A stretch of DNA of 64,000 nt from Fundidesulfovibrio soli (lineage in GTDB: Bacteria > Desulfobacterota > Desulfovibrionia > Desulfovibrionales > Desulfovibrionaceae). The stretch is from positions 62,001-126,000 of the forward strand of contig NZ_JAKZKW010000003.1 of NCBI RefSeq assembly GCF_022808695.1. Direction: 5' to 3'. Position 1 is the stretch's first letter, and each line of letters begins with the position of its first letter. Both the position numbers and the translations under genes were made by a program. Shown one piece after another: positions 42,347-45,776 of this stretch. Below the pieces are notes generated by a model. That model had not been told where the DNA came from. It saw only the letters and a list, made by a program, of their open reading frames with translations, and did not search any database.

Positions 42347-44089
42347 TCACTTCGTGGTGGTGACCGACAGGGAATCGAAATCCTGCTCTTGGGCCATCCG
42401 CTGCGATTCACGCTCGATGGCCTCTATGTGGCGGGCGAAGACGGCCACGAGCTGCTGGTCCAGCTTGCCCTGGGCCGCGTCGCGGTGGAGGATCTGCAGG
42501 GCCTCCTCGCGGGGCAGGGCGGGCTTGTAGTGCCGCTCCATGGTCACCGCGTCGTAGATGTCCACGATCATCAGGATGCGCGCCATGAGCGAAATCTCGT
42601 CGCCCTTGAGTCCGGCCGGATAGCCGGAGCCGTCCAGGCGCTCATGGTGCTGGAGGATAATCTCGGGCAGGTCGCGCATGCGCTTGGGAAAGGGGATGTG
42701 CTGCAGGATCCGGTAGCTTTCGGCCGGGTGGCGTTCGATCTCCTTGCGCTCCTCGGGCAGCAGGTTGCCCCGCGGCAGGAGCAGGGCAAGGGTCTCGACT
42801 TCCGAGAGGATGGGCATCGCGAGGCCGTAGGCGTTCAGCTCCTGCTTGGCGACTTCGACCACCAGTGAGGCCTGTTCCCGGGTGAGGCCGTCGGAGGAGT
42901 TGATACGCTTGAGCATCTCGAAATCCGCGTTCCAGGGCGCGCCGGATATTTCAGAGAGCAGGGCCATGCGCATCCCGATCAGGTCCATCTGGTCATTGGG
43001 GAGCCGGGTGGACTTGGTGAGCACCTGCTCCCGGACGCCGATCTTGCCTACGTCGTGCAGCAGCCCGGCATAGTAGATCTCGGTGAGCGCGGAGTCGTCG
43101 AAGGAGACGCGGGGAAAGTGGAAGTGGTCCTCGTGCACGGCCTTGGCCAGGGCCACGGCAAGCCGGGCCACGCGGTGGGAGTGCCCGGCGGTGAAGAGGT
43201 CCCGCGCGTCGATGGCGGTGGCCAGGGCCTGGAGCAGGGCCTTGAGCAGCGTCTGGATGCTTTCGAAATGGACGGCGTTGCCCATGGCCGTGCCCGCAAC
43301 CGAAGCCAAGGTGTTCACGTACTGGAGGTGGTTGGCCTCCAGCGCCACGTCGCGGGCGCTGGCCAGCACCAGCAGGCCCACGCGGTTTTCAGCGGCCACG
43401 ATGGGCACGGCAAGGATGGAGGTGATGCCGGGCACCTCGTCGTGCCAGCGTGGGTCGGCCACGAGGTCGCTTATGATCTCGCCCTTGCCGGTGCGCATGA
43501 GGTCCTGGAAAAGGGTGCTGGAAAGGAAACGCTCTAGGTGCCGCTCCTCGGCGGGGCCGAAGGAAGCGATGGGCACGGGCGAGTTGCTGTCGTTGTCGCG
43601 CAGGAAGATCATGCCCATTTCCGTGGGCAGTGCGCCGGAGGAGCACTCCCCGATGAGCGCACGGCCAACGTCGCGCAGGCGCAGCGAGGCGTTGAGGCCC
43701 ACGGTCGCCCGGTGCAGCAGGGAAAGCTCGCGGTATTTCTGCAGGGTGTCGGAAGCAAGGGCCCGGCGCGCGTCGTCCTGATGGAGGAGCATCTCCAGGC
43801 TGGCGGCAACGAACTCGGCCACCTGCTGGGCGTTGCTCGAAGCGCGGTGGGAGCGGGGCCCGTCCTTCTCGGCGACGATCACATGCCCGAGCACACACCC
43901 GTTGGAGACAAAGGGCGCGCTGAAGCGCGCGGCATCCGCATGCTGGAGGTGCTCCTCGTCGAGGCCGAGTGAGGCGTGCATGCGCCCCGCCTGGACCACG
44001 GCAATGCCCCAGCCAGGCTCCAGGAGCGACCTGGCCTTGGTGAGCAGCGGAGTTATGTCGAAGCTGCGGAGGAAACGACGCAGAACCAT
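42347..44089 (-). CDS. GAF/HD-GYP cyclic-di-GMP phosphodiesterase
   Basis: 580 residues. A GAF domain covers about 115-275. The HD-GYP domain follows: AGHSHRVARLA, the HD pair in LLHDVGKIGV (H345, D346), and HHERLDGSGYPAGLKG (481-496), the full GYP signature, then DIYDAVTMERHYKPA. Family members hydrolyse cyclic di-GMP, so activity is expected. The receiver gene directly upstream (24 bp) probably supplies its control by phosphorylation. Confidence 0.93.
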   Translation of the reverse strand: MVLRRFLRSFDITPLLTKARSLLEPGWGIAVVQAGRMHASLGLDEEHLQHADAARFSAPFVSNGCVLGHVIVAEKDGPRSHRASSNAQQVAEFVAASLEMLLHQDDARRALASDTLQKYRELSLLHRATVGLNASLRLRDVGRALIGECSSGALPTEMGMIFLRDNDSNSPVPIASFGPAEERHLERFLSSTLFQDLMRTGKGEIISDLVADPRWHDEVPGITSILAVPIVAAENRVGLLVLASARDVALEANHLQYVNTLASVAGTAMGNAVHFESIQTLLKALLQALATAIDARDLFTAGHSHRVARLAVALAKAVHEDHFHFPRVSFDDSALTEIYYAGLLHDVGKIGVREQVLTKSTRLPNDQMDLIGMRMALLSEISGAPWNADFEMLKRINSSDGLTREQASLVVEVAKQELNAYGLAMPILSEVETLALLLPRGNLLPEERKEIERHPAESYRILQHIPFPKRMRDLPEIILQHHERLDGSGYPAGLKGDEISLMARILMIVDIYDAVTMERHYKPALPREEALQILHRDAAQGKLDQQLVAVFARHIEAIERESQRMAQEQDFDSLSVTTTK

Positions 44090-44113
44090 GAGGAACGGAT
44101 ACTCCGGCTTGTA

Positions 44114-44503
44114 CTACCTGTGGATGCCGAGCAGCGCGCGGGCTGTGCTCAGAACCTCGTCCGGGTCAAAGGGTTTGGTCATGTAGTGCTTCGCGCCAAG
44201 TTCCAGGCCCTGCTTGCGGTCGACCTCCTGCCCCTTGGCGGTGAGCAGGACGATGCTGGCGCCGCTGTTCAGCGCGGCGTCGCCCTTGATTCTGCGGCAG
44301 ACCTCGTAGCCGTTGAGTTTGGGCATCATGATGTCGAGGAAGATGATGGAGGGATGCTCGCGCTTGATGATCGCCAGCGCTTCTTCGCCGTTGGAAGCGG
44401 TAAGCAGCTGAATCCCGTGTTCTTCTTCAAGATCTTCGAGGGTCTGTTCCAAGAGCATACGGATATGCACTTCATCGTCGACAATAAGGATTTTGCCGGA
44501 CAT
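44114..44503 (-). CDS. Single-domain response regulator
   Basis: 129 residues with only a receiver domain: VDDEVHIR, phospho-acceptor Asp in IIFLDIMMPKLNGYEV, switch threonine in IVLLTAKGQ and lysine in HYMTKPFDPDEVL. It is encoded directly before the HD-GYP protein and likely partners it or a distant kinase. Confidence 0.92.
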   Translation of the reverse strand: MSGKILIVDDEVHIRMLLEQTLEDLEEEHGIQLLTASNGEEALAIIKREHPSIIFLDIMMPKLNGYEVCRRIKGDAALNSGASIVLLTAKGQEVDRKQGLELGAKHYMTKPFDPDEVLSTARALLGIHR

Positions 44504-44740
44504 GTCAGCTCCTGGATGCAGAGACGTCTTTCACTCCGCTCATACGCCAATTGTTTACGAAGGTGAAGCACCTTACCATGTGCCGGGGCGGCAAAGAAAA
44601 GCGGGGGGGCCCTGTGGGCGCCGCGTCAAAAAGCCTAGAGGCGCTATTCGCTGGCAACATCCACCACGGGCTGTCCGTTGCCGCAGCGTGTCCGGGCTGT
44701 AGAGAACAGATCCTGGACGGGTGCCGTCTATACGGTACTG
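44504..44740. other. Intergenic region after the selenoprotein gene
   Basis: 237 bp with no convincing gene or strong terminator seen. Confidence 0.35.
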
Positions 44741-45061
44741 TTATTGTCCGCCGCAGGAACCGCTGGAGCAGGAGCTGCCGCACCCGCCGCCGCCGAGTTC
44801 GAGGCTGGAATTGATCTGGAAGCCCATGTAGGTCAGGTCGATGGTGATGGGCTGGGCCTTGCTCATGAGCTCTTTTTCAATGATGAAGCTGTAGCCCTGA
44901 ACATCGAAAACGTCGTCGTTGTCTTTTGGCTCATCCAGAGCCAATGCCAGCCGGGGGCCAGCTCAGCCACCGGAGGAGAGATACACGCGGATGGGGGATT
45001 TCTCCTTGTCCGCAAAGTAGGAGTCAAGCTGCGTTTTGGCAGCCTCAGTAAGCGTGAACAT
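44741..45061 (-). CDS. HesB/IscA-like selenoprotein with in-frame UGA (Sec33)
   Basis: 106 residues if the UGA at 44963-44965 is read as selenocysteine. It starts MFTLTEAAKTQLDSYFADKE with AGGAGG six bases before the ATG at 45061. The UGA falls in SSGG-U-AGPRLALALDE. The neighbour gene has SSSC-AGPRLTLALDD with cysteine at the same residue 33. The rest continues in frame to a cysteine-rich tail (GGGGCGSSCSSGSC). HesB-like proteins are a known prokaryotic selenoprotein family with an A-type Fe-S scaffold fold. The bases after the UGA can fold (GAGC / GCTC with GCC / GGC inside), as a bacterial SECIS should. Standard gene callers would cut this gene at the UGA. Confidence 0.88.
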
Positions 45062-45086
45062 GGGAGCCTCCTGGGATGATAGGGTC

Positions 45087-45121: not shown

Positions 45122-45380
45122 ATATTGTAAATTCCTATGTCCATTATTGGATGTGGCAATGCTCGGTATTCTGAGTTCTCTTGCCCCGTAGCACCTGTGA
45201 GCATCTTGAGAAATAAAATAATCAACGTGCGCGAAACTTGTTCGGCACCGGTCAGGCGGGGTGCGGGCCGGGTTCGCCGCCCGGCATCATGGCGAAACAG
45301 CGGCGCGCCACTGGACGGTATGGCTCAGAGATTCGGCAATGGACGCCGCAGCCGTGGCAATGGTCAGGAGAAAAAGAAAA
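45122..45380. other. Intergenic region between the two HesB-like genes
   Basis: About 260 bp. The part near 45121-45240 is AT-rich and upstream of the selenoprotein promoter. I see no gene. Confidence 0.35.
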
Positions 45381-45410
45381 CGGCGGGCATCGCTGGATGG
45401 ATGCCCGCCG
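45371..45410 (-). terminator. Terminator after the Cys-type HesB-like gene
   Basis: A perfect 10-bp stem CGGCGGGCAT / ATGCCCGCCG; on the minus strand TTTTCTTTTT follows. Confidence 0.85.
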
Positions 45411-45458
45411 TCGGATACGCGCCGGGTGTAGGCTTGGCGGGAAGCGCGGAGAATGCTG

Positions 45459-45776
45459 CTAGGAGCAGCTACCGCCTGAGCAGGAGCAGCCGCCGCAGCT
45501 GCCGCCGGAGAGCTTCAGGCTCGATTCCACCTGGAACCCGGAGCAGGAGAAATCCACGGTCAGGGGCTTGGCTTCAGTGAAAAGCTCACTCTCCACGATG
45601 AAGTCGTAGCCGTCCACGGTATGCACGGAGTCTCCGTCCTTGGCGTCGTCCAGGGCCAGGGTCAGGCGCGGGCCCGCACAAGAGCTGCTGGTGAGGAAGA
45701 TGCGGATGGCGGATTTGGCGTTCTGCTCGAAGTAGCTGTCCAGTTGCGCTTTTGCTGGCGCTGTGAGAGTGACCAT
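45459..45776 (-). CDS. HesB/IscA-like protein, cysteine paralog
   Basis: 105 residues, clearly homologous over its full length to the adjacent selenoprotein, with Cys33 in place of selenocysteine. It starts MVTLTAPAKAQLDSYFEQNA and ends with a cysteine-rich tail (GGSCGGCSCSGGSCS). The A-type scaffold fold is inferred from family likeness. AAAGGAG precedes the ATG. It has its own terminator, so the two paralogs are probably separate units. Confidence 0.88.
   Translation of the reverse strand: MVTLTAPAKAQLDSYFEQNAKSAIRIFLTSSSCAGPRLTLALDDAKDGDSVHTVDGYDFIVESELFTEAKPLTVDFSCSGFQVESSLKLSGGSCGGCSCSGGSCS

Follow-up and report, generated by a model that had tools for sequence, protein, structure and literature searches.

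The gene and its reading frame

On the minus strand of the window (by which we mean the whole stretch of 64,000 nucleotides of Fundidesulfovibrio soli DNA analysed here) lies a gene for a HesB/IscA-like selenoprotein (44738..45061), which opens with an ATG at 45061 and closes, after 106 residues, with a TAA at 44740-44738. A Shine-Dalgarno sequence, AGGAGG, is found 5 nt upstream of the ATG (45067..45072, minus strand). The sole in-frame stop between ATG and TAA is a UGA at codon 33 (44963..44965, minus strand), which we read as selenocysteine (Sec, U) and which recurs in 63 distinct relatives. The read-through product is MFTLTEAAKTQLDSYFADKEKSPIRVYLSSGGUAGPRLALALDEPKDNDDVFDVQGYSFIIEKELMSKAQPITIDLTYMGFQINSSLELGGGGCGSSCSSGSCGGQ, with a cysteine-rich C-terminus. 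In the table-11 listing of open reading frames, only a 67-aa remnant of this gene appears, starting at TTG; a plus-strand frame at 44678-45079 and the other mechanical frames that overlap the gene were dismissed as its antisense shadows. The original prediction had placed the gene at 44741-45061, and these limits are right, 44741 being the last sense base before the TAA; the strand had been left unstated.

Upstream lies a tandem paralogue on the same strand (45459..45776; NF038090, 103.8 bits), whose alignment with the Sec gene places a cysteine codon (TGT) at exactly the Sec-site residue. As had been pointed out from the sequence, AGPRL follows the site in both genes, the Sec copy reading SGGUAGPRL and the Cys copy SSSCAGPRL. 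Between them is a hairpin resembling an intrinsic terminator (45379..45412, minus strand), with a 13-pair stem and a T-rich tail, recognised only by its match to the consensus. Immediately 3' of the Sec gene, at 42347-44503 on the minus strand, are genes for a single-domain response regulator and an HD-GYP-type protein, for which no known link to selenium was found. An Rfam search of the 64-kb window returned one tRNA and no other match.

Membership of a known selenoprotein family

The read-through product matches NF038090 (IscA_HesB_Se), an NCBI model that takes its name from the selenium-containing form, at 130.2 bits against a cut-off of 85, its residues 1-96 aligning to positions 1-101 of the profile. 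Because this single full-length match spans both halves of the protein around the UGA, the continuation of the frame is not a matter of chance, and the proposal of a well-placed ATG, one UGA and a homologous continuation holds. The [UC]xGP site of NF038090 is present as UAGPR by way of the UGA, and U or C is invariant at this position among 51 aligned members. PF01521 is passed just above its cut-off (27.6 against 26.3 bits), whereas the scores for TIGR01911 (HesB_rel_seleno; 34.7 against 66.35 bits) and the IscA equivalog TIGR02011 (32.8 against 150.6 bits) fall short. By these sequence comparisons the window gene belongs to the NF038090 family of IscA/HesB selenoproteins, already known from relatives, with which it has in common the UGA site and the [AS]GPR motif that follows; it shows no essential difference from that family, to which it adds a tandem Cys paralogue.

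HesB-like selenoproteins had been described as known from other bacteria when the gene was first proposed, and they have indeed been reported for Desulfovibrio vulgaris, as DVU_1382 (PMC1914089), and for both D. vulgaris and D. desulfuricans (Table 3 of PMC1794560). These share with the window gene the family name, a UGA-coded Sec and the bacterial family, and DVU_1382 is probably its orthologue, judging by the UGA genes of relatives (for example locus L166 in G089, Desulfovibrio sp. A2). A literature search on DVU1382 found nothing beyond the 2007 prediction paper. The family was thus published for Desulfovibrio in 2006-2007, and the window gene is one more member. The archaeal HesB-like selenoprotein of Methanococcus maripaludis, of the TIGR01911 type, carries its Sec in the corresponding position of a UxGP motif (PMC13188914) and was identified through mutagenesis and 75Se labelling (according to PMC11097638). 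It differs in that the archaeal SECIS is unlike that described here, and the window protein, scoring below the TIGR01911 cut-off, belongs to a distinct subfamily. The function of HesB-like selenoproteins has been called unclear (PMC11097638, PMC13188914).

Selenocysteine machinery and conservation of the UGA

The full Sec machinery, on whose presence the prediction depended, is encoded in the genome of the window (4.0 Mb in 41 contigs): one selA (604 bits), one selB above cut-off (373 bits), one selD (336 bits) and a tRNA-Sec (79 bits) for which ARAGORN gives the anticodon TCA (UCA). The selD gene (L011, from 1459 onward on the plus strand) carries an in-frame UGA of its own within RAAGUAAKLPPG, where GUAAK corresponds to the published SelD motif UxxK (PMC13188914); it is, on this sequence, itself a selenoprotein gene that table-11 annotation would truncate, and is therefore an independent witness to the decoding of UGA as Sec in the same genome. 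A second covariance match to tRNA-Sec (L016, 52.9 bits) was rejected, being read by ARAGORN as tRNA-Ser with anticodon TGA.

Each of the six family-positive genomes of the genus holds a copy interrupted just once, in every case by TGA, alongside one or two Cys copies. Across the 247 genomes of the order, the listed family matches are either uninterrupted or contain a single TGA, and neither TAA nor TAG occurs in them. In a set of 130 distinct sequences drawn from retrieved loci, 63 have TGA at the Sec site, 58 have TGC or TGT, and nine, all of them divergent copies, have some other codon; since the frames of this set were split at TAA and TAG, the absence of those two stops rests on the genus and 247-genome listings, which were read through all stops. 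Relatives with other stops at this site, which would have spoken against the prediction, were not found among the listed matches. The C-terminal TGA codons of some relatives (such as ...CGSHHU) were considered as a second Sec and rejected, as they lie at the ends and have no consistent motif.

The UGA gene also tracks the means of decoding it. An exact search of the 247 genomes with a pattern for the UGA gene and its downstream hairpin core (TGA..GG.CC..GGCTCTGGAYGAG) found it in 155, against none for the reversed control, and SelA was found in 217. Within the family to which the window belongs (187 genomes), 153 have both the UGA gene and SelA, 14 have SelA without the UGA gene, 19 have neither and one has the UGA gene without SelA (Fisher p 3e-16, only indicative because the genomes are related). 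The exception is G223, an assembly of 820 contigs that is 93% complete. In genomes without SelA, such as G209, G210, G230 and G233, the family persists but no stop interrupts it.

A hairpin frozen downstream of the UGA

Downstream of the UGA is a SECIS-type hairpin, UUGGCUC-UGGAU-GAGCCAA (44926..44944, minus strand), whose 7-bp stem is present in the minimum-energy fold of the stretch after the UGA (z -2.2) and whose apical loop starts 25 nt after it. The published rules for a bacterial SECIS call for a loop of 3-9 nt, a stem of 4-16 bp, a G in the first two loop bases, a distance of 16-37 nt from the UGA and a minimum free energy of at most -7.5 kcal/mol (PMC13188914). With a loop of five bases (UGGAU), a G at the second of them and an energy of -10.1 kcal/mol, the hairpin lies within all of these limits, and on this count the check proposed for the bases after 44965 favours Sec.

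The codons in this stretch make a stronger case than the fold. At codons +8, +9 and +11 (Ala GCT, Leu CTG and Glu GAG) synonymous identity is 1.0 in the 63 UGA genes, against 0.40, 0.41 and 0.50 in the 58 Cys paralogues, and at the remaining codons of the UGA genes it is mostly 0.3 to 0.7. The core GGCTCTGGAYGAG stands at the same distance in 63 of 63 UGA genes and in two of 58 Cys genes, and the best in-range hairpin averages -8.8 kcal/mol in the former as against -4.2 in the latter. The innermost three pairs are invariant and the two beyond them stay paired by G-C or G-U only, while the outer pairs vary, are often unpaired and are not retained in all lineages, which limits the constraint to the inner five pairs. 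Covariation was sought in the UGA genes and compensatory changes were almost absent; with inner pairs that are invariant or alternate only between G-C and G-U, the support lies in frozen sequence, not in compensatory change.

Predicted fold and metal site

An AlphaFold2 model of the Sec protein, built from the 51-row family alignment (pLDDT 82), has its best Foldseek matches in IscA and SufA (1x0g, 1r94, 1s98 and 2d2a; E 4e-6 to 4e-5), and an IscA fold is accordingly what the model predicts. The Foldseek matches also include DsrR, which is an IscA-like protein from a sulfur bacterium. In phmmer alignments with IscA-family structures, residue 33 is matched to the cysteine of GGCSG, the first of the ligands, and Cys94 to the final Cys of the CGC motif at the C-terminal end; where that motif begins with Cys, the Sec protein has Gly. 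Residue 33 and Cys94 are the only invariant Cys/Sec positions across the 51 members and, given this alignment with ligand cysteines, we take Sec33 and Cys94 to be the probable pair of ligands, or redox pair, in a carrier of the IscA type, in which Sec33 would bind iron or an Fe-S cluster or act in redox release. The protein thus resembles the A-type Fe-S carriers in predicted fold and in the placing of two ligands, but differs from them in the Gly within CxC, in an extra Cys-rich tail and in scores far under the cut-offs of the IscA/SufA equivalogs. The tail is modelled with low confidence (pLDDT <50), so any cluster geometry read from the model would be tentative.

Readings of the in-frame UGA

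We are very nearly certain that the gene encodes an NF038090 IscA/HesB-family selenoprotein. In the mechanism that we propose, SelB and tRNA-Sec would decode UGA-33 as selenocysteine under the direction of the hairpin 25 nt downstream, and the product would resemble an A-type carrier with the IscA fold, its first metal- or Fe-S-binding Cys being replaced by Sec, which would form an invariant ligand pair with Cys94. Read-through as Sec, the core of the original prediction, is supported by the machinery, the bSECIS-type hairpin and the retention of the UGA in relatives; together with the frame, the family, the constraint on the hairpin and the predicted fold, all of them computed from sequence, they lead us to infer that Sec would really be inserted at residue 33 in this organism.

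That the UGA is instead a real stop, in a pseudogene or through a sequencing error in a Cys codon, has some initial appeal, as a single base separates TGA from TGT or TGC and a working Cys paralogue adjoins; but the same UGA occurs in 63 distinct family sequences and in independent assemblies of other species, the residues after it are conserved and synonymous codons there are frozen. An error in a single genome cannot recur in more than 150 assemblies, which refutes this reading and leaves it exceedingly improbable. Ordinary suppression or read-through, for example with insertion of Trp, would likewise hold the frame open, and we regard it as only slightly less improbable: where the motif is intact the UGA swaps only with Cys codons, UGA copies track SelA, the bSECIS-type hairpin is fixed, and several genes in these genomes end normally at a TGA. 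Sec-UGA codons terminate under selenium shortage, and the gene might on that account be mainly a selenium-dependent switch, in which the UGA ends a 32-residue peptide when selenium is short and the mRNA or peptide is regulatory. The entire downstream protein is conserved, however, including a Cys94 that is invariant in 51 of 51 aligned members, and a chiefly regulatory role is very unlikely, if a shade less so than the other two.

Cysteine paralogues and their evolution

Returning to the selenoprotein reading, the terminator-like hairpin between the Cys and Sec genes suggests that they are separate transcription units, which could then be expressed independently. The separately terminated Cys copy would be a selenium-independent counterpart of the Sec copy, and the cell may switch between the two isoforms according to selenium supply, as has been described for other Methanococcus proteins (PMC11097638). 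A third member of the family in the same genome (L031, G000:C22:24488-24775) is a Cys form that lies away from the tandem pair, and copies related to it are present in G001 and G003.

On a protein tree computed with the Sec site left out, a tree that is weakened by a short alignment, long branches and gene conversion, the UGA sequences do not form one clade (p-AU 0.00017), the starred branches force at least five label changes, and Sec and Cys copies are intermixed. Independent origins are made unlikely by the common synonymous hairpin core of all UGA genes; the pattern is better explained if copies went from Sec to Cys once duplicated, or if tandem copies underwent conversion. One Cys paralogue (TGT; L062, G235:C14:113100-114450, minus strand) holds a complete SECIS core, GGCTCTGGACGAGCC, which suggests either a fossil of a Sec-to-Cys change or gene conversion from the adjoining UGA copy. 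A comparable fossil SECIS has been described in Desulfitobacterium hafniense, likewise for a HesB-like protein (PMC1794560).

We would put at even chances a broader picture for the Desulfovibrionaceae, in which Sec and Cys copies swap identity repeatedly: the UGA gene with its one fixed SECIS would be old, and Cys copies would have been re-made by duplication and Sec-to-Cys change, or homogenised by gene conversion, in separate genera, leaving a paired Sec/Cys toolkit under independent transcription. Other copies have a different residue at the ligand position. In genus g7 (Solidesulfovibrio-like), seven loci (L049, L051, L052, L053, L055, L058 and L061) have a further adjoining paralogue with Glu, Ala or Asp for the Sec/Cys ligand (for example FLSESGPRL), possibly a ligand-less, regulator-like copy; in genus g10, a divergent neighbour copy (L102, L103) carries Ser there (PRGSRGPHL) and lacks cysteines at its C-terminus.

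Significance

The immediate outcome is that the annotation of one gene is corrected. The hairpin after the UGA can be recognised by the absence of synonymous change in its codons, for which the Cys paralogue provides an internal control. A genome that encodes the same metal-site protein in both a Sec and a Cys version would offer a natural test of what selenium contributes to an Fe-S-type carrier.
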